The notes under the pieces are model-generated. The model was given only the letters and a program-made list of their open reading frames with translations, did no database searches and had not been told where the DNA came from. From the NCBI RefSeq assembly GCF_001010945.1, contig NZ_LBHB01000001.1, positions 682,001-746,000 of the forward strand: 64,000 bases of DNA, written 5' to 3'. The position numbers and the translations under genes were made by a program. Of this stretch, positions 42,505 to 50,168 are shown piece after piece; positions within the stretch are counted from its first letter, which is position 1; each line of letters starts with the position of its first letter. This stretch comes from Aurantiacibacter luteus. Its GTDB lineage: Bacteria > Pseudomonadota > Alphaproteobacteria > Sphingomonadales > Sphingomonadaceae.

Positions 42505-43362
42505 CTACTGGATACGGCGCGCCGTATAGCCAAGCGCCTCCAGCCGCGCGACGAGGCCATCCTCGCCGACGAGGTGCGCCGCGCCCACGGCCACGAACGG
42601 GCGGCGGCCTTCCTCCACCAGCGCGGCGATGCGGTCGGTCCAGGCCTCGTTGCGGCGGGTGAGGAGGGTGCGGCGAAGCTCCGGGTTGGAGAGCAGCTCG
42701 CCGCCTACGTGTTCCGCGATCCTGCGTTCGTCGCCGCTCAGCCAGGCTCGCAGCATGGCATCGCCCCGGCCCGCCTGCCAGTCGCGCGCGGTGGCGGCCA
42801 GCAAGTCACCCTGCGCCTCCTGCGAAAGTCGGTCGAACAGCGAGAGCTGGCCGGCATAGCTCTCCAGTCCGACGACCTCGTCCGCCTCTGCAATCAGCGC
42901 ACGGTCGACGCCGTTGTCGCTATCGCCGGTGCGAGTTGCGGCGGCGAGCAAGAGGGCGGCGCCCCAGCTCTCGATGCGCGAGAAATCGCCGTCGTCCATC
43001 CCGGCGGCATCCATCATCGCGAGAAGGGCGGGGCGCGCCTCCGCGTCCACCCGGCGCGAGAGCGGGGGCTGGCCGGGCGTTTCGGAAAGGTCGCTGAAGA
43101 GTTCCGCGCCCGACGTATCGCCGAGGTTGGCGACCTCGACCACGAGCAGGTCGCTATCCGCCAGCGCGGCATCGAGCGCGGGAGTGCGCCACTTGGCATC
43201 GTCGGGCAGTGCATGGATGGTGCCGAACAGCGCCCCGCGCTCGCCCCCGGGTGCGGTGATCTCCCACAACATGGGGCTGGGCTCGGGCCAGTCCGACGCG
43301 GACGGAGCGCCGCAGCTCGCAAGCCACAGCGCCCCGCCCAGTGTCAGGAAAATCTGCCTCAG
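42505..43362 (-). CDS. TraB/GumN family lipoprotein (first of three), probable CTG start
   Basis: A TraB/GumN domain protein of about 285 residues. The two GxxH motifs of the family are present: [12 protein letters not shown] near the N terminus and [20 protein letters not shown] at the end. No ATG, GTG or TTG suits the start. A CTG at 43362 overlaps the upstream stop as CTGA and gives [16 protein letters not shown], a good lipoprotein signal with Cys17. The first internal ATG (MLWEITAPG) would remove the signal. TraB-like proteins are thought to be metal-dependent proteases, but bacterial substrates are unknown. Confidence 0.8.
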
Positions 43363-44318
43363 TATGCGACGCGCTCCGCCGTCAGGCCGCGCTCGTGCAG
43401 GAAGTACTGGACGCTGCCCGCACCGCCGAGATGACCTGCGCCCACGGCGACGAAGACGGTGCCGGGGCGATCCATGCGTTCGTCCAGCCATTCCGCCCAG
43501 CGTGCGTTGCGATCGCTGAGGAGCGTGGCGTAGAGCGCCGGATCGGCGGCAAGCTCGTCGTTGACCAGCGTGGCGAGGCCGGCGGCATCGCCTTCCATCC
43601 ACTCGGTCACCATCGCGTCGAAGTTCTCGCGCAGCGCCTCGGGCGTCGCCATCATCTCTACCGTCTGGTCGAGCCCGGCGAGCTGGGCCTCCATCGGCAG
43701 GCTGTCGAAGAAGCCGAACTGCTGCTCGACGGTCTCGAAGGCGGCGCGTTCCTTGCCCTCGACCAGGGAGTCGAGCACGCGCTCGACTCCGGTCGAGGGA
43801 TCGATGCCCACTTGCACCAGGCCGAGCTGGGTCAGCGTCATCATGCCCATCCACGGCTCGAACCCGTCGAGCGCGGCTGCGGGCACGCCGACGCGGGCGA
43901 GGGCGGCCTCGTATTCCGCGCGGTTCTCGTCGGTCATCAGGTCGCGCACCGTGCCGCCGGTCTCCAGCGTGGCGAGGCGCATCTGCGTCTGCATAATGGC
44001 CATCAGTTCGGGCGAGGGGGCCTCGCCGGGCACGACCTCGGGAATGGCGCTGGTGTCGATCTCGCTGACGAACTCGTCGGCGGATTCGAGCGCGCCGCGG
44101 ATCGTCGGATTGTACCACTCCACGCCCTCGGGCAGGAAGTGGACGGTGCCGAAGAGATAGATCGTCGTGTCATCGTCGCTCAGCCGCCACAATGCGGGGC
44201 CGGAGGACGCGGTCGCCTCGGCTTCGTTCGGCGCGCTGACCTGGGCGATGCCGGGCGTGGAGGCGCAGGCCGAAAGGGCGATGGCCGATGCGGCGAAAAG
44301 CAGTTTGCGAAAGATCAT
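43359..44318 (-). CDS. TraB/GumN family lipoprotein (second of three)
   Basis: A 319-residue TraB/GumN protein. The signal MIFRKLLFAASAIALSAC ends in a lipobox with Cys18. The family motifs are GTVHFLPEGVEWYNP near residue 60 and VAVGAGHLGGAGSVQYFLHERGLTAERV at the C terminus. AGGAG lies 9 bases before the ATG. It starts 41 bases after the small membrane protein and overlaps the next TraB gene, so it may be co-transcribed with the membrane-protein array. Confidence 0.88.
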   Translation of the reverse strand: MIFRKLLFAASAIALSACASTPGIAQVSAPNEAEATASSGPALWRLSDDDTTIYLFGTVHFLPEGVEWYNPTIRGALESADEFVSEIDTSAIPEVVPGEAPSPELMAIMQTQMRLATLETGGTVRDLMTDENRAEYEAALARVGVPAAALDGFEPWMGMMTLTQLGLVQVGIDPSTGVERVLDSLVEGKERAAFETVEQQFGFFDSLPMEAQLAGLDQTVEMMATPEALRENFDAMVTEWMEGDAAGLATLVNDELAADPALYATLLSDRNARWAEWLDERMDRPGTVFVAVGAGHLGGAGSVQYFLHERGLTAERVAY

Positions 44319-44359
44319 AATGGCGACTCCTGTTGCAGTTGAAACGATGGGTCCGGCCT

Positions 44360-44779
44360 TCAGCGCAGGCCGAGTTTGCGCGTGACATAGCCCACCAGCA
44401 TGACGAGCATGGTGGTGAACCAGATGATCTGTTGGTTGGGATCGGGCATCATGCCGACCGTCGCGAAGAAATACCACGTCGGGTAGGCGACCATGTAGAA
44501 GTGGAAGCCCCAATAGGCGGCCCACAGGTTGTCGGCCATGTCGACCTCGTCCAGGCGGCGCAGGTAGCCCGCGACGTAAAAGCCGAAGGCCCCGAGACCT
44601 AACGCCCACATGGCGACGATGGCCGCACCGGGCAGCAGCCCGCTCTCGTACCAGCGACGGGTGTATCCGCTGACCATCCCGAACAGCACCGCCACCGCGA
44701 TGCCGAGCGCGGAATAGCGGTAGAACCGGCTGCGGCGCTGCTTCAGGCGTTCCTCGCCCGAGAGGCTAGAGCCCGTCAT
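44360..44779 (-). CDS. Small four-helix membrane protein, array member 7
   Basis: A 139-residue protein with a basic N terminus and four hydrophobic segments (about 24-42, 50-71, 90-108, 117-135). The loop after segment 2 carries R-R-L-D-E-V-D-M-A-D-N-L-W, a variant of the D-E-Y motif shared by the array. It lies downstream of the XRE regulator and overlaps it by 14 bases. The ATG at 44779 gives MTGSSLSGEERLKQRR. Function unknown. Confidence 0.78.
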   Translation of the reverse strand: MTGSSLSGEERLKQRRSRFYRYSALGIAVAVLFGMVSGYTRRWYESGLLPGAAIVAMWALGLGAFGFYVAGYLRRLDEVDMADNLWAAYWGFHFYMVAYPTWYFFATVGMMPDPNQQIIWFTTMLVMLVGYVTRKLGLR

Positions 44780-44960
44780 CGAAAATCTCCTCGATCGGCA
44801 TCTCGAACAACCGCGCAATGCGGAAGGCCAGCGGCAACGACGGGTCGTGCTTGCCGGTCTCGATAGCGTTCACCGCCTGGCGCGAGACGTCGAGATGCCC
44901 GGCCAGCTCCGCCTGGCTCCAGTCGCGCATGGCGCGCAGCACCTTGAGCTTGTTATTCAT
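44766..44960 (-). CDS. Small XRE-family transcriptional regulator
   Basis: A 64-residue Cro/CI-type helix-turn-helix protein that is almost only the DNA-binding domain: NKLKVLRAMRDWSQAELAGHL, then DVSRQAVNAIETGKHDPSLP (recognition helix) and IARLFEMPIEEIF. This length is typical of regulators that partner small membrane proteins. It overlaps its neighbours on both sides (ATGA upstream, 14 bases downstream). Autoregulation of the array is likely but not shown. Confidence 0.92.
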   Translation of the reverse strand: MNNKLKVLRAMRDWSQAELAGHLDVSRQAVNAIETGKHDPSLPLAFRIARLFEMPIEEIFDDGL

Positions 44961-45448
44961 CTGCTGTCCCTCCAGCGCAGGAACTGGAAGATGCCGACGA
45001 ACAGCAGCAGGAAAGTTTGCCAGGCGGTAACCAGGGACGTCCAGAAATTCATCTGAAGATTCAGGAAACCCAGCGCATCCGGCAGCTCCTCGCCCCCGAT
45101 GGCAGCGTAGGCAGCCCACGTGCCAAGGATGATGACGAGCGGCGCAATGGCCAGCACGTTGACCAGCAATTCCACGGTGCGCTTCCACAACTGCTCGGCA
45201 TATTCGTCGCGCAAGGATCGCGTCACGACGAGCACGGGCCCCACGATGAAGCTGACGAACAGGATCGGCACGCCGATCGCAATATAGACCGGGTCGTCGT
45301 CCGACCAGGGCTGCCATCCGAACGCGTCGTCCCGCAGGAAATCCGCCGTGCCCAATGCTGCGGCCAGCAGGCACAGGTCCATCAACCGGAAATACAATCG
45401 ACGCCGTCGTTCCCTTACCTTCGGTTGCGCAGGTGTATGTTTGCTCAC
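44957..45448 (-). CDS. Small four-helix membrane protein, array member 6
   Basis: A 163-residue protein with a strongly basic start (KVRERRRRLYFRL) and four hydrophobic segments (about 22-36, 55-76, 92-115, 132-155). The motif R-S-L-R-D-E-Y-A-E-Q-L-W (DEY at 81-83) follows segment 2, as in the other array members. It starts with GTG overlapping the previous stop (GTGA) and overlaps the XRE gene as ATGA. Function unknown. Confidence 0.78.
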   Translation of the reverse strand: MSKHTPAQPKVRERRRRLYFRLMDLCLLAAALGTADFLRDDAFGWQPWSDDDPVYIAIGVPILFVSFIVGPVLVVTRSLRDEYAEQLWKRTVELLVNVLAIAPLVIILGTWAAYAAIGGEELPDALGFLNLQMNFWTSLVTAWQTFLLLFVGIFQFLRWRDSR

Positions 45449-45876
45449 AGTGCAGTTCCCCGCACGCGATATATTGCGTAGCCGATTGTCCAGCTACCGG
45501 CGAGAACGCCCAGCGTCAGGTCCGGAGAGGACACGATGCGCAGAAGGCCGAAAGCCGGTGCGAGTTGCATGCCGAGGTCGGCGACCAACGTCACGAGAAT
45601 GGCGCTGATTGCGCTGTTGGCCATGGCTTGGAAGGTATACTCGTCGTTGACCTTGCGATCGATCTTCAAGGTGAAAAAGGCCAGCACGCTCAACACGGCG
45701 ACCGCTGCGAGCACAGCTGCGACAAAGGTCGCGGTGTCGGCGAGGGGGGCGACAGCCTCGGCACCGCGGGCGGCGTGGCGGGCAGGTAGTGCGACAGCCA
45801 GCACGCCCAGCGCCAGGAAGACGAGGTCGAGGCCGACGAACGGCCCCAGCGACCTCTTGTTCAGCAGACCGATCAC
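45445..45876 (-). CDS. Small four-helix membrane protein, array member 5
   Basis: A 143-residue protein with four hydrophobic segments (about 13-30, 50-70, 87-103, 121-136). D-R-K-V-N-D-E-Y-T-F-Q-A-M (DEY at 78-80) follows segment 2; this and member 1 (R-K-T-D-E-Y-T) are the closest pair. The GTG start at 45876 gives MIGLLNKRSLGP and overlaps the upstream stop as GTGA. Function unknown. Confidence 0.76.
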   Translation of the reverse strand: MIGLLNKRSLGPFVGLDLVFLALGVLAVALPARHAARGAEAVAPLADTATFVAAVLAAVAVLSVLAFFTLKIDRKVNDEYTFQAMANSAISAILVTLVADLGMQLAPAFGLLRIVSSPDLTLGVLAGSWTIGYAIYRVRGTAL

Positions 45877-46292
45877 GCAGCAGTTCCCCGAAGACGCTTG
45901 CCATCGAAGGCGAGGTAGAAAACAAAGGCGCCCAGCAGCGCCGGCCATTGCGGTTCGATGAGCACGGCCGGCATGGCGAAACGCACGCCTTCTTCCGCCC
46001 CGCCGCCGAGCGCAAAAACGAGCGCCACTCCGGTGAACCACAGCCCCAGCGCCACGGCACACCAGCGTGCCGCCTCCAGTCGCAGGCTGGCGAGATAGTC
46101 GTCAGCGAAACGATAGAGCAGCAGCACCCAAATCCCGCACCACGCCATCAGCAGGAACAGGCCGGCAAGGCGCGTATTGCTACCGAAAGCGAACGAGCCC
46201 GCCGCGATCAGCGTGTCGATCAGTCCGAGAGGCGCGAGGGCGAACATCCCCGAACGCTCTTTCTCCGAAGGAGCTGTCGGATCGTAGGGCAT
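45873..46292 (-). CDS. Small four-helix membrane protein, array member 4
   Basis: A 139-residue protein beginning M-P-Y-D-P, an opening it shares with members 2 and 3. Four hydrophobic segments lie at about 17-36, 43-60, 75-93 and 113-131. L-L-Y-R-F-A-D-D-Y-L-A-S-L (DDY at 64-66) follows segment 2, at exactly the same residue numbers as in member 3. Its start overlaps the stop of member 3 as TGATG. Confidence 0.78.
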   Translation of the reverse strand: MPYDPTAPSEKERSGMFALAPLGLIDTLIAAGSFAFGSNTRLAGLFLLMAWCGIWVLLLYRFADDYLASLRLEAARWCAVALGLWFTGVALVFALGGGAEEGVRFAMPAVLIEPQWPALLGAFVFYLAFDGKRLRGTAA

Positions 46293-46750
46293 CAGGCATT
46301 ACCTCCGCCGCGAAACTGCTTGTAGAGGAAGCCTGCGTGAAAGGCGCAGGCGACCGCCGAACCGATGAGCCACGCGCTGTTGAACTGCGCGGGAAGGGCG
46401 AATGTGCGATCGTCCGCGGAAAGCTCGGCACCGCCGGCGCTGTAACCGATGCCATAGAAGCCCTCGCAGATCGACAGCAGGCCCTGCACCCCTAGCCACA
46501 GGCCGAGCACGCACAGCGCCCACAAGGCACCCTCGTGCACGAGGCCCATGAAGTAATCGTCGAACTTGCGATAGAGCGCGAAGAGCACAAACCAGATGCC
46601 GACGTAAAAGCCGACAAACCCCTCGACATGCGGACCGAGCGGCAGGAAATTGGACGCGAGCATGACAAGGCTCATCACGCCCGCCGCGCGCACCTGCCAG
46701 TAGGCGGCTTCGCGCCCGCCCTGGTCCAGTCGGTTGGGATCATAAACCAT
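46292..46750 (-). CDS. Small four-helix membrane protein, array member 3
   Basis: A 152-residue protein beginning M-V-Y-D-P, with hydrophobic segments at about 20-37, 43-60, 73-92 and 127-146. The motif A-L-Y-R-K-F-D-D-Y-F-M-G-L has DDY at 64-66. The C terminus A-F-H-A-G-F resembles that of member 2 (L-F-H-A-G-Y). The ATG at 46750 lies 11 bases inside the member 2 gene. Confidence 0.78.
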   Translation of the reverse strand: MVYDPNRLDQGGREAAYWQVRAAGVMSLVMLASNFLPLGPHVEGFVGFYVGIWFVLFALYRKFDDYFMGLVHEGALWALCVLGLWLGVQGLLSICEGFYGIGYSAGGAELSADDRTFALPAQFNSAWLIGSAVACAFHAGFLYKQFRGGGNA

Positions 46751-47201
46751 CGTTGTCGCCCCCGAACGGCAGCCGGTCGCGAAGGTAGGCGAAAGCATAT
46801 CCGGCGTGAAACAGCAGGCCGAGGCCCAGCGCGAGTAGCAGGCTGTCGCTGGCAAGCACGTCGAAACCCGCGATAAGGCGGTCCATCAAGCTCGTGTTGC
46901 TGTCGATCCACAGCAGCAGCATCACGACTCCGAGGCCGAACGCCATCCACGAAAGGCCGGTGCCCACGAGCGAGCGGTAGTAGCCGTCGGTATTGCCCTT
47001 CATTCCAGCGACGATCAGCGAACCGCACATGCCGCCGAAGAGCGGGCCCATGAAGGCGATGTTTGCACCTGAAAGGTGGAGCGGAATGGCGAGCACGTTG
47101 ACCGCGCCGCTCGCGAGGGTCAGCCAGTACAGGCGCTCGCGATGTTCGCGCTGGTTGCGCTCGTGGTCGATGCGGTAACCGGTGGAGGGTTCGTAGGGCA
47201 T
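46740..47201 (-). CDS. Small four-helix membrane protein, array member 2
   Basis: A 153-residue protein beginning M-P-Y-E-P with a charged stretch (IDHERNQREHRERLYW), and hydrophobic segments at about 24-43, 49-67, 82-100 and 121-140. K-G-N-T-D-G-Y-Y-R-S-L (DGY at 72-74) replaces DEY. It overlaps member 1 as TGATG and member 3 by 11 bases. Confidence 0.78.
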   Translation of the reverse strand: MPYEPSTGYRIDHERNQREHRERLYWLTLASGAVNVLAIPLHLSGANIAFMGPLFGGMCGSLIVAGMKGNTDGYYRSLVGTGLSWMAFGLGVVMLLLWIDSNTSLMDRLIAGFDVLASDSLLLALGLGLLFHAGYAFAYLRDRLPFGGDNDGL

Positions 47202-47599
47202 CAGAAGGCTCCGGTCAGGCGCTTGATATTGAAGACGACAAAGAAAGCGAAAAGCGAGGCAGCCGCAGCGCCGCGCTCGGGAAAGTCCTGCCCGTTCTCG
47301 ATACCGAACAGGCCATCGATGAAACCTTCGATGCCCGGAGCCGCCACGAGCCAGGCGATAATCGTGGCGAAGGCGGCGTTCGTCGCCGTGGACCAGAGGC
47401 TGAGCGTGTACTCGTCGGTCTTGCGGGTAAAGAACATCACGGGGAGAGAGACCACCAGGCAAACGGTGGCCGCTATCACCAGGCTCCGCGGTAGCGGATG
47501 GAAGGCCGCGATCACCAGCATGGCGATGCCCAGCAGACCGACGATCCCGAGATTAAGATTGACGGAAGCCCAGTCGCGGCGGCGCTTGATCGTGTTCAA
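47201..47599 (-). CDS. Small four-helix membrane protein, array member 1
   Basis: A 132-residue protein with hydrophobic segments at about 15-33, 39-57, 67-85 and 110-125. F-T-R-K-T-D-E-Y-T-L-S-L-W (DEY at 62-64) follows segment 2. A TTG start at 47599 is preferred because AGGA lies 8 bases upstream and it gives MNTIKRRRDW. It is the first gene of the array, 92 bases after the urcA-like gene. Two palindromes occur at and before the start. Confidence 0.75.
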   Translation of the reverse strand: MNTIKRRRDWASVNLNLGIVGLLGIAMLVIAAFHPLPRSLVIAATVCLVVSLPVMFFTRKTDEYTLSLWSTATNAAFATIIAWLVAAPGIEGFIDGLFGIENGQDFPERGAAAASLFAFFVVFNIKRLTGAF

Positions 47600-47631
47600 G
47601 TGATCGGTCCTGTTAGCGGTTGCTTGCAAGC
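47585..47631. promoter_or_regulatory. Two short palindromes at the start of the membrane-protein array
   Basis: CTTGA-N6-TCAAG (47585-47600) spans the TTG start of the first array gene. GCTTGCAAGC (47622-47631), a perfect 10-base palindrome, lies 23-32 bases upstream. XRE regulators bind short palindromes, so these are candidate operators for the array regulator. Chance occurrence cannot be excluded. Confidence 0.3.
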
Positions 47632-47691
47632 GAGGGAGGCGGGGGCGGCGCTGCCGGGCTGGTGGTGCGTCGCCCCCTGTCCCGCGCAAGA

Positions 47692-48021
47692 TCAGCCCCG
47701 GTTGTCGAGGGTCAGCGTGGCGAGACGTTCGGTGCGCGCCGCGACGATGGCCAGTTCGATGCGCGGGGCGAAGGATGCCTCGAGATCTTCCCGGCAGGCG
47801 CTCTCGAAGCGGCGCGATGCGCTATCGCGGCCGCCGGTGCGGCAGGCACGCGAGATGGCCTGGTCGACTCGGCTATCGAGGCGTTCCTGGTCGGCGGGCT
47901 GGGTCAGGTCGAGGTCGGCGGTGGGCACCGTGATCTGCGCCGGCTCGCCGGTCTGCGCAGCGGCCGGAACGGCGAAGGCGGCAACGATGGCGATGGCGGC
48001 GGAGGCGAGGAGCTTGGTCAT
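47692..48021 (-). CDS. UrcA family protein
   Basis: A 109-residue exported protein with signal peptide MTKLLASAAIAIVAAFAVPAAAQ. The mature part matches the UrcA family common in Sphingomonadales and Caulobacterales: ITVPTADLDLTQPADQERLDSRVDQAISRAC, with paired Cys (RACRTGG and SACREDLE). Function is unknown. It lies directly downstream of a promoter flanked by inverted repeats and 92 bases before the membrane-protein array. Confidence 0.88.
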   Translation of the reverse strand: MTKLLASAAIAIVAAFAVPAAAQTGEPAQITVPTADLDLTQPADQERLDSRVDQAISRACRTGGRDSASRRFESACREDLEASFAPRIELAIVAARTERLATLTLDNRG

Positions 48022-48069
48022 AGCAATGGTCCTTTTAACCTTACAATGTGTTCGGTCAACCTTCCCTTA

Positions 48070-48127
48070 TGTCAGGTTGTGCTGACTTTATGTCGTGACT
48101 CACTGACCGTGTCAACATGACCTGACA
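48070..48127 (-). promoter_or_regulatory. Promoter with flanking inverted repeats upstream of the urcA-like gene
   Basis: On the minus strand TTGACA (48115-48110) and CATAAA (48092-48087) are 17 bases apart, a good sigma-70 promoter. TGTCAGGTTGTGCTGAC occurs on the plus strand at 48070-48086, and an inverted copy (TGTCAGGTCATGTTGAC on the minus strand) at 48127-48111. They match at 14 of 17 bases; one covers the -35 box and the other lies just downstream of the -10 box. A third looser TGTC-N9-TGAC is at 48091-48107. This is a typical operator layout; the regulator is unknown. Confidence 0.5.
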
Positions 48128-48183
48128 AAAGGACAGGCGTGCGTGACCCGCGCGCCTGCCAAGCATCTGAAATATTGGTTGAA

Positions 48184-49167
48184 TTAATTTATGCGTTCGG
48201 CCGTCAGGCCGCGCTCTCGCAGCTTCGCCAGAAGCGAAACATCGCCCTCGAAGTGCCCGGACCCGACCGCCAGCAGGATGGTGCCGGGCGAATCGAGTCG
48301 TTCGTCCAGCCACTGCGCCCAGGCCGTGTTGCGGCGGTCGAGCAGCATGGCGTTGAAGGCCCTGCCGATGGCGCCGTCGCCGAAACCGATGTCGAAGTGA
48401 TCCTGCACCTCGCCGCGCGCCCAGCGGTGCTCGTCCGCCCAGTAATCGTCGCCGCGCGCGTCGACGTAGTCCGCGTCGTAGAACTGCTCGACCGACTTGC
48501 CGCGCCAGGCCAGCAGCTTCGCGTCGAGGTCGGCGATGATGGCATCGTCGTCGAGGCGCAGCAGCGAGTACATCACCGCGCCCGAATCCTCGATCGACTC
48601 GATCGGCCTGTTCGTTTCCAGGAAATCGCCCTCCAGCACCGTCTCCACGCCGTACTCGGTCGAGGAGGGATTGGACCCCACCGGCCCGTATCCCATGGAC
48701 AGCATGGCAGAGAGCACGGGCAGGTTGTCGAAGGCCTCGAAGTCCGCGCCGCTGCGCTCGATCAGCCGCCGCCACTGGGCTGCGCCCTCGGGCGAGAGAC
48801 GCTGCGAGGTGGGCACGCGGTTCGCCACGCGGTGCGTGAACTTCGCGTCGAGGTCGATCGCGCCCTCGTATTCGGCATAATCGGTCGTTTCCAGCACCAG
48901 TCCGTCGACCTCGGCGATGATGCTGTTGAGCTGGGCGCTGCGCCAGCGGAACCCTTCGGGCAGCGCATGGATCGTGCCCAACATGTAGATGGTCGTGTCC
49001 TCGTCCGACAGCTTCCACAGCGCAGGCGCGGGCTCGTAGTCCTGGTGGAAGGCGTAGCGGTCCGCCTCCTCGGCGACCCTGCCGCCCGTGTCTTGCGCGG
49101 CCAGCGGCGTGGCGGCGAGGAACAGGGAGGTCAGGGCGAGCGCGATGCGCGAGAGGGTGCGAGCCAT
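48184..49167 (-). CDS. TraB/GumN family exported protein (third of three)
   Basis: A 327-residue protein with a signal peptide of the cleavable type (MARTLSRIALALTSLFLAATPLAAQ). The TraB/GumN motifs are MLGTIHALPEGFRW near residue 66 and LAVGSGHFEGDVSLLAKLRERGLTAERIN at the end. The last ten residues closely resemble those of the second TraB protein (R-G-L-T-A-E-R). It is followed by 162 bases before the urcA-like gene and diverges from glyQ. Function unknown. Confidence 0.88.
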   Translation of the reverse strand: MARTLSRIALALTSLFLAATPLAAQDTGGRVAEEADRYAFHQDYEPAPALWKLSDEDTTIYMLGTIHALPEGFRWRSAQLNSIIAEVDGLVLETTDYAEYEGAIDLDAKFTHRVANRVPTSQRLSPEGAAQWRRLIERSGADFEAFDNLPVLSAMLSMGYGPVGSNPSSTEYGVETVLEGDFLETNRPIESIEDSGAVMYSLLRLDDDAIIADLDAKLLAWRGKSVEQFYDADYVDARGDDYWADEHRWARGEVQDHFDIGFGDGAIGRAFNAMLLDRRNTAWAQWLDERLDSPGTILLAVGSGHFEGDVSLLAKLRERGLTAERIN

Positions 49168-49265
49168 TTCGCAGGCGATTCACACACGCGCGCGCTCTTG
49201 CTGTCAAGCGCCGTTGCCGCCTGCCATTGACGCTCGTTCACCCTTGAGCCAAAGCCCGCCGCGCG

Positions 49266-50168
49266 ATGACGAGCCCCAATCCCGCGACCAGCTTCCAGGA
49301 CATGATCCTCGCGCTCCACGATTTCTGGAGCGCGCAGGGCTGCCTGATCCTGCAACCCTACGACATGCGCATGGGCGCGGGCACCTTCCACACCGCCACC
49401 ACCCTGCGCGCGCTGGGGCCGGAGCCGTGGAACGCCGCCTTCGTCCAGCCTTCGCGCCGCCCCACGGATGGCCGTTATGGCGAGAACCCCAACCGGCTTC
49501 AGCACTATTACCAGTACCAGGTGATCCTGAAGCCGAGCCCGCCGGACATCCAGGACCTCTACCTTGAGAGCCTCCGCCGCATCGGCGTGGATCCGCTGAA
49601 GCACGACATCCGCTTCGTTGAGGACGACTGGGAATCGCCCACGCTCGGCGCCTGGGGGCTGGGCTGGGAGGTCTGGTGCGACGGCATGGAGGTGACGCAA
49701 TTCACCTATTTCCAGCAGATGGGCGGCTTCGATTGCAAGCCCGTCGCTGGCGAGCTGACCTACGGTCTCGAACGCCTCGCCATGTACATCCAGGGCGTCG
49801 ACAACGTCTACGATCTCGACTTCAACGGGAAGGGCGTCAGCTACGGCGACGTCTTCCTCGAGAACGAGCGGCAGATGTCGAAATGGAACTTCGAGGTCGC
49901 CGATACTGCCGCCCTGTTCGACCTCTTCGCCAAGGCCGAGTCCGAGTGCCGCAACGCCATCGCGCATGACGTGCCCATTGCCGCCTACGAGCAGGCGGTG
50001 GAAGCCAGCCACCTGTTCAACCTCCTCCAGGCCCGCGGCGTCATCAGCGTGCAGGAACGCGCCAGCTACATGGCCCGCGTACGCGATCTGGCGCGCGGAT
50101 CCTGCGAGAAGTACGCCGAGGTGATGACGCCGAAGTGGCAGGCGGACTATCCGGAGTGGTCGCTGTGA
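49266..50168 (+). CDS. glyQ: Glycine-tRNA ligase alpha subunit
   Basis: The alpha subunit of the bacterial heterotetrameric glycyl-tRNA synthetase, which forms glycyl-adenylate. The 300 residues show the family signature [17 protein letters not shown], the class II motifs [17 protein letters not shown] and [18 protein letters not shown], then FEDDW-like [21 protein letters not shown] and [12 protein letters not shown]. It overlaps glyS by 4 bases. Confidence 0.97.

Follow-up and report, generated by a model that had tools for sequence, protein, structure and literature searches.

A variable array of distantly related membrane proteins around a single XRE regulator beside glyQ: a candidate autorepressed membrane-signal switch in Aurantiacibacter luteus and related Sphingomonadales

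Introduction

Modules composed of an XRE-type regulator and a membrane protein are already known; what distinguishes the locus described here, which lies in a 64,000-nt stretch of DNA from Aurantiacibacter luteus (the whole of which is referred to as the window), is the expansion of its putative sensors, their rapid turnover and the presence of tandem operators. The locus encodes seven small membrane proteins (G1–G7) together with one small XRE regulator. Two described systems come closest. In Staphylococcus aureus, the six-helix DUF3169 protein AyrA, which carries a conserved D-E(a/g)E loop before helix 5, signals to the repressor AyrR that stable preproteins are building up, and the authors propose a more general two-component scheme, according to the passages on AyrRA in PMC5727409; the label ‘Cro-like’ for AyrR stems from the title of a reference therein. 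In Enterococcus faecalis, CylR2 binds a promoter, and the co-encoded CylR1, a suspected membrane protein, is needed for induction by a route that is given as unknown in the relevant passages of PMC3709268. The openly licensed PubMed Central literature yielded no recognised paper on the Sphingomonadales locus itself. By analogy with these two precedents, we lean towards reading it as an autorepressed membrane-signal switch of the CylR1/CylR2 or AyrRA kind with an expanded sensor set.

An overlapping array behind tandem palindromes

The array runs head to tail on the minus strand from 47599 to 44360 in the order G1, G2, G3, G4, G5, G6, XRE, G7 (Table 1). In agreement with an earlier note on this DNA, the seven membrane proteins measure 132–163 aa and are encoded on one strand with every junction overlapping (7 of 7; from G1 to G7 by 1, 11, 1, 4, 4, 4, and 14 nt), and the 64-residue XRE regulator (44766–44960) sits between G6 and G7. 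As only 17 of the 47 same-strand neighbour pairs in the window overlap by our home-made gene caller, seven consecutive overlaps are improbable by chance, which hinges on the start codons chosen; the start of G1 is the least sure, because in-frame TTG codons also occur at 47629 and 47689. The transcription unit very probably begins upstream of G1, with a gene of the UrcA family (TIGR04433, E 8.4e-19, 67.5 bits against a cut-off of 25; no Pfam match at E≤0.1) that stands behind three tandem palindromes (48070–48127). These palindromes ahead of the operon's UrcA-family gene are new relative to the earlier note.

Table 1. Features of the array, its predicted operators and its flanking genes (positions within the window)
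Feature	Coordinates	Strand	Remarks
G1, four-helix membrane protein, 132 aa, TDEY at start of helix 3	47201..47599	-	TTG start; AlphaFold pLDDT 90.2
G2, membrane protein, 153 aa, TDGY	46740..47201	-	53% identity to nearest relative, in L011
G3, membrane protein, 152 aa, DDY	46292..46750	-	
G4, membrane protein, 139 aa, DDY	45873..46292	-	hhalign 99.2% to G2/G3 family
G5, membrane protein, 143 aa, NDEY	45445..45876	-	GTG start; sub-threshold DUF3796 match
G6, membrane protein, 163 aa, RDEY	44957..45448	-	GTG start
XRE regulator, 64 aa, HTH_3, CylR2-like, predicted operon repressor	44766..44960	-	Pfam HTH_3 3e-13
G7, membrane protein, 139 aa, LDEVD, commonest partner class	44360..44779	-	AlphaFold pLDDT 92.7
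UrcA-family small protein, 109 aa, signal-peptide-like start, first gene past operators	47692..48021	-	TIGR04433
Predicted operator O1, TGTCAGGTCATGTTGACA; right end TTGACA	48110..48127	-	motif in XRE loci
Predicted operator O2, GGTCAGTGAGTCACGACA	48091..48108	-	19 bp from O1, start to start
Predicted operator O3, AGTCAGCACAACCTGACA	48070..48087	-	21 bp from O2, start to start
TraB/PrgY/GumN family protein, possible same-operon output	43359..44318	-	PF01963 1.4e-65; 41 nt past G7
Second TraB/GumN-like gene, conserved flank, start approximate	42505..43272	-	gene call; likeness to relatives' flank gene

A slot of variable content beside glyQ

Relatives of the locus were collected in two sets. 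Among 199 family genomes (glyQ present in 195), G2 matches were confined to three and G6 matches to six, the own genome included in both cases, and as these relatives shared the same surroundings, glyQ was taken as a neutral anchor. The first set (126 loci, designated by a G-handle) comprises the window, seven loci selected via G2 or G6 matches, and 118 from the glyQ list, which were taken, with some omissions, in roughly descending order of similarity among the glyQ matches listed. The named set derives from an XRE scan of genome contigs and holds the best 80 of 505 relatives, whose titles mostly name Erythrobacter, Qipengyuania, Sphingopyxis, Altererythrobacter, Novosphingobium, Sphingomonas, and their kin. 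Nine loci are common to both sets, and the 135 XRE loci reduce to 126 distinct ones and 120 distinct ones within the slot described below. Because the gene caller misplaced some starts, membrane proteins were recounted with hidden Markov models (HMMs) over stop-to-stop open reading frames (ORFs); these counting HMMs were built with the same array proteins included.

The same slot between glyQ and a TraB/GumN gene was found in other Sphingomonadales, in which the earlier note had proposed to look for the gene order of the array, and its content is variable. An XRE relative lies between the two genes in 55 of the 126 first-set loci; none was found in the stretch read in the remaining 71, where the strand of the array also lacks array-family ORFs up to 8 kb from glyQ. 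Conversely, all 55 first-set XRE loci and 74 of the 80 named ones are located beside glyQ, the other six having no glyQ or GumN in the stretch, some at contig ends. At least one membrane protein is present in 119 of the 120 distinct XRE slots: 72 hold one, 26 two, eight three, nine four, two five, one seven, one eight, and one none. The slot with seven is that of the window, and the one with eight belongs to Erythrobacter sp. NAP1 (L176), so that the sevenfold expansion, considered unusual in the earlier note, is indeed extreme in this collection but not unique. Among the other sampled genomes of the window's genus, G014 has two membrane proteins, G103 one, and G165 none. On a glyQ tree, the XRE state changes at least 25 times as compared to a mean of 41.3 (34–47) for 100 shuffles, which suggests that it is inherited, yet often gained or lost.

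Some loci depart from this arrangement. In Sphingomonas parapaucimobilis (L229, NZ_CP155756.1), a block of glyS, glyQ, XRE, hypothetical genes, GumN, and L25 is found on a 197-kb plasmid. A contig titled Actinobacteria bacterium 21-64-8 (L153) carries G1-type, G2/3-type, and XRE genes as well as two palindrome sites without an adjoining glyQ, and is perhaps mis-binned or a relocated array. Finally, in L047, L053, L094, and L112, a gene of about 700 aa, with a start of M-T-T-I-H or similar and with RTCHICEANCGVLVE, lies between glyQ and the array or, in those that lack an array, between glyQ and GumN; we take its product to be oxidoreductase-like.

The XRE regulator and its predicted operators

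The regulator is a small XRE protein similar to CylR2 (PDB 1utx; E 9.6e-13 over residues 3–61, 50% identity), with an even better match to PDB 9k3w (E 1.2e-21), and it is encoded beside a membrane protein, both in the window and in the slots counted above. From the conserved palindromes, it is predicted to recognise an inverted repeat in its own promoter. In terms of k-mers, ACCTGACA occurred in 44 of 52 XRE slots and in none of 62 XRE-less slots, and it belongs to tandem 18-bp palindromes of the form xGTCA-N8-yGACA. With the strict pattern DGTCA-N8-YGACA and its reversal as control, 104 sites (control: 2) were counted in the 55 first-set XRE loci, with at least one site in 52 loci and at least two close together in 33, whereas the 71 XRE-less loci gave a single site (control: 5). 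Given that the pattern was discovered on the first set, the named loci represent the fairer test: here, 172 sites were found against 3 in the control, and 60 of the 65 distinct in-slot named loci outside the first set carry a strict site. Across the 120 distinct slots, at least one site precedes XRE in 112, at least two in 83, and at least three in 39, and the distance between successive starts is 21 bp in 62 cases, 19 bp in 45, and 40 bp in 19, a phasing that dimers sitting on the same side of the helix would be expected to show.

Whichever gene opens the operon (UrcA, a microprotein described below, G1, G5 or XRE), the palindromes stand ahead of it. In the own genome, the pattern occurs at seven places (8 matches to the reversed pattern), and only O1–O3 are clustered. 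XRE therefore very likely controls its own operon and, judged by this pattern, little else in the genome, and it probably binds the row of three matching predicted operators. The well-matched site C1:793703 was considered as a hint of a wider regulon and discarded, as it falls inside a MazG-like reading frame. The first site ends in TTGACA in 90 of 120 slots, as does O1, and this TTGACA may serve as a -35 element; the -10 element is uncertain. Downstream, the last array gene is followed by GumN at a median distance of 56 nt (54 XRE loci), the glyQ-GumN gap in 53 XRE-less loci has a median of 141 nt, and no terminator-like site was detected between G7 and the GumN gene. No Rfam family reached its gathering score in 43000–49500.

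Two further kinds of genes were observed in this region. A third TraB/GumN gene (48184–49167, PF01963 1.2e-36) lies between glyQ and the operators in the window and also in some relatives. A single-helix microprotein of 38–44 aa, often with an AGYGxGN-like motif, is encoded among the first operon genes of L028, L030, L042, L048, L050, L054, L074, and L077; the 92-nt gap between UrcA and G1 in the window is too small for it.

The own genome contains two more XRE paralogues, at G000:C11:153023-153205 (L021) and G000:C17:75131-75313 (L022), each of which adjoins one membrane protein of five to six segments with a D-E motif (DDEYL and QDELM). In hhalign comparisons, the C11 neighbour scored 95.3% with the four-helix and 37% with the six-helix G7 group, and the C17 neighbour 95.4% and 96.6%, respectively. 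Plasmid relatives of XRE show a similar association: of ten records opened among 424 with a match, eight adjoin a small membrane-protein-like gene and two do not.

Seven distant homologues with a probable common four-helix fold

None of G1–G7 matches a Pfam or NCBIfam family above cut-off, and neither PADLOC (E≤0.01) nor PHROGs (E≤0.001) gave a match for them, HTH-type matches to XRE alone being returned from these libraries. Relationships within the array were approached with hhalign, using family alignments from relatives and reversed alignments as control. G1 is linked to the G2/3/4 group (98.9%), to G6 (96.2%), and to G5 (93.5%), and G5 in turn to the four-helix form of G7 (94.5%), which itself matches the six-helix form of relatives at 99.95%. 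The direct G1–G7 values are 75.5% (four-helix) and 88.1% (six-helix), and those between G7 and G2/3/4 are weak (32.5% and 24.1%). The reversed controls remained at or below 16.8% in 15 group comparisons, and for two unrelated membrane proteins encoded in the flanks the values did not exceed 1.4%. On the basis of these profiles, the seven proteins are distant homologues, in a family held together via G1 and G5, rather than members of unrelated families, which the earlier note had named as the outcome that would speak against its view.

The acidic motifs listed in that note recur as TDEY, TDGY, DDY, DDY, NDEY, RDEY, and LDEVD in G1–G7; likewise, G2–G4 begin with M-x-Y-[DE]-P, and G3 and G4 share DDY at residues 64–66. 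Its assignment of about four hydrophobic segments to each protein holds for six of the seven by hydropathy, whereas G7 shows three by this measure, yet four helices in its AlphaFold model. Models were computed for G7 and G1 only (predicted local distance difference test, pLDDT, 92.7 and 90.2; predicted template modelling score, pTM, 0.69 and 0.82, respectively), and both show a four-helix protein in which helix 3 begins with the acidic motif. No variation is seen at D77 of G7 in 31 sequences or at D62 and E63 of G1 in 19. According to Lys/Arg counts, positive charge is mostly greater on the N-terminus and the motif loop, which suggests a cytoplasmic location for this loop; the D-E (or D-D, D-G) motif at the start of helix 3 is thus likely to face this compartment. 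In contrast to the four-helix G7 of the window with its LDEVD motif, the longer forms in relatives have five to six segments by hydropathy and a DEHE-like motif.

Origin of the array

The earlier note envisaged a single local duplication series, and this idea fared poorly. In a quick tree with long branches, built from 63 G1, G2/3/4, and G6 proteins, window G1 pairs with L142, G2 with L011, and G3 with L014, whereas window G4 is placed on a long branch and window G6 in an unresolved fork. The approximately unbiased (AU) test rejected G2, G3, and G4 as one local clade (p=0.001), the pairing of G2 with G3 (p-AU 0.003), and that of G1 with G6 (p-AU 4.5e-6). It did not reject G3 with G4 (p=0.36) or G2 with G4 (p=0.145), so that G4 could conceivably have arisen locally from one of its neighbours; in blastp, G4 is 36% identical to window G3 over 103 residues and 37% to its best relative elsewhere over 76. 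Most of the array hence looks like an old, mosaic set, in which one local step from G3 to G4 is possible.

Its suggestion that the locus grew from a two-gene regulator-membrane protein module is, on the other hand, a good reading, because the locus most often consists of XRE and a single membrane protein. G7-type proteins account for 62 of the 72 single-protein slots and are present in 106 of 120 slots overall, and in relatives the G7-type gene often overlaps XRE by the same 14 nt. We therefore take XRE–G7 as the putative core pair, in front of which G1–G6 were added.

A candidate membrane-signal switch and its rivals

The genes, their overlaps, the homology, the slot, the palindromes, and the strict co-occurrence are solid, as they can be read from the sequence itself. 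From these, the favoured switch would operate as follows. XRE would act as an autorepressor, dimers of which bind the three phased 18-bp predicted operators O1–O3 over the promoter and silence one operon composed of the UrcA-family gene, G1–G6, XRE, G7, and perhaps also the TraB/GumN genes starting 41 nt further on. G1–G7 would represent diverged forms of one four-helix fold, one or more of which are altered by a membrane disturbance (uncleaved preproteins in the AyrRA precedent, a peptide in that of CylR1/CylR2); the altered proteins would then release or capture XRE and thereby turn the operon on. As several sensors would share one repressor, the sensor set could be gained, lost or swapped with the wiring unchanged. 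XRE binding, repression, co-transcription into GumN, contact via the D-E motif, the sensor role, the signal, and the output are all inferred. The switch reading is put forward because of the two studied precedents: AyrA and CylR1, together with the DEHE-like motifs, the weak DUF3169 likeness and the membrane proteins beside XRE relatives, suggest that G1–G7 are sensors that relieve repression.

As to the output, TraB/PrgY proteins are thought to degrade pheromones derived from signal peptides in enterococci, as stated in the relevant passage of PMC7117660, which makes peptide clearing an attractive, albeit unproven, idea. A far-reaching version of the switch would be a combinatorial membrane sensor, in which many diverged sensors of one fold report to a single highly conserved repressor with tandem operators, lineages tune their input by adding, dropping or swapping sensors at a fixed slot, and a TraB/GumN peptidase-like output acts against stray membrane peptides; we regard this extended form as rather doubtful.

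Several findings weigh against the switch. GumN genes also remain in XRE-less slots and hence need not be its output. A sigma-70 consensus scan of 43300–48300 detected no strict promoter, and five terminator-like sites lie on the minus strand inside G1–G4 (seven in total, 3.0 expected), so that a single unbroken transcript is a prediction. A strict operator is missing from eight of the 120 distinct slots and a G7-type protein from 14. With respect to homology, the G6–G7 (8.4% and 1.1%) and G6–G2/3/4 (12.7%) comparisons are not significant; a single Carnobacterium protein reached 54% against the reversed six-helix G7 alignment, which marks single-sequence comparisons as loose; and neither the G7 nor the G1 model has a fold match in the PDB at E≤0.001. 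Matches to DUF3169 are weak and below cut-off, with 5 of 31 four-helix G7-type members (best E 0.01).

Among the rivals, one dispenses with sensing altogether: the membrane proteins would be effectors, such as small transporters, channels or envelope stabilisers, and XRE would simply hold down their dose by feedback repression. Such an autorepressor would account just as well for the operators, for the strict co-occurrence, and for the close overlap of the genes, and the prevalence of loci with XRE and one membrane protein also agrees with it. However, the seven proteins match no transporter family above cut-off, and a D-E motif precedes a helix in five of seven membrane neighbours of plasmid XRE relatives outside the slot and recurs in AyrA, which is treated as a signalling membrane protein in the passages of PMC5727409, so that we hold the effector explanation to be unlikely, though well worth weighing. 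The spread of copy numbers (0–7 in the four genomes sampled from the window's genus, 0–8 group-wide) and the mosaic look of the array members would also suit a set of genes for defence against, or immunity to, antagonists that act on the envelope (bacteriocins, phages), with arms-race turnover; such a role appears improbable in view of the fixed place beside glyQ (55 of 55 first-set and 74 of 80 named XRE loci) and the lack of matches to PADLOC and PHROGs at the thresholds given above.

An overlapping pair with an XRE regulator and a patchy distribution may further be reminiscent of a toxin-antitoxin-like couple, with a membrane toxin and XRE as its antitoxin. Yet a survey from 2009 left out Xre-membrane protein pairs because membrane components were not known from any type II system at the time, according to the pertinent passage of PMC2701414, and seven toxins per antitoxin as well as at least 25 gains or losses of the whole locus on the glyQ tree argue against addiction, which renders this explanation highly improbable.

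Significance

The route by which the signal passes from membrane to repressor is left open for CylR1/CylR2 and AyrRA alike in the passages of PMC3709268 and PMC5727409. The locus described here amounts to a natural experiment in environmental bacteria, with 120 distinct versions, one repressor type, a conserved operator, and 0–8 membrane proteins, by means of which contact residues, signals, and the worth of extra sensors become testable. Its variable copy number at one chromosomal spot is suggestive of a switch that senses the membrane and whose set of sensors grows and shrinks. In addition, the tandem-palindrome motif provides a simple means to find and annotate such membrane proteins, of which the seven here are left unnamed by Pfam, NCBIfam, PADLOC, and PHROGs.

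Comparison with known systems

Three described families were considered for the array proteins, and membership in two of them, DUF3796 and DUF2178, was rejected. For DUF3796 (PF12676), G5 gives the best match of its own genome, which is a certain likeness, but stays at 13.6 bits against a cut-off of 24.8. For DUF3169/AyrA, the best match of the own genome (10.5 bits versus 31.6) lies away from this locus, and one of 24 six-helix G7-type members shows a weak match. For DUF2178 (PF09946), the own genome has no match at E≤10, the seven proteins have none in hmmscan at E≤1, and relatives have none among the 25 of 48 families listed; a comparison of six groups with one Streptomyces DUF2178 member, the single member used, gave at most 10.5% in hhalign. 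The word ‘DUF2178’ has no match in the openly licensed PubMed Central literature. The earlier note's remark that the layout recalls the DUF2178 type nevertheless stands as a fair analogy, though not as family membership: a Streptomyces plasmid relative of XRE has a DUF2178 neighbour, with which it overlaps by 11 nt and which carries DER before helix 3, whereas G1–G7 do not match PF09946.

CylR2-CylR1 resembles the locus in the same small kind of XRE protein, which binds a promoter in the case of CylR2 and is predicted to do so here, and in a co-encoded small, suspected membrane protein. As far as the passages of PMC3709268 describe it, it differs in that there is just one CylR1, for which three helices are predicted, that the target operon is divergent, and that it has no sensor array. 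AyrR-AyrA of S. aureus is organised as an operon with downstream effectors, according to the passages of PMC5727409, and its loop motif has a counterpart in the DEHE-like motifs seen in six-helix G7 proteins of relatives; however, G1–G7 and their relatives stay below the DUF3169 cut-off among the matches listed. Where AyrRA relies on one sensor and ABC transporter effectors, the locus presented here would combine up to eight sensors with, perhaps, a TraB/GumN output.

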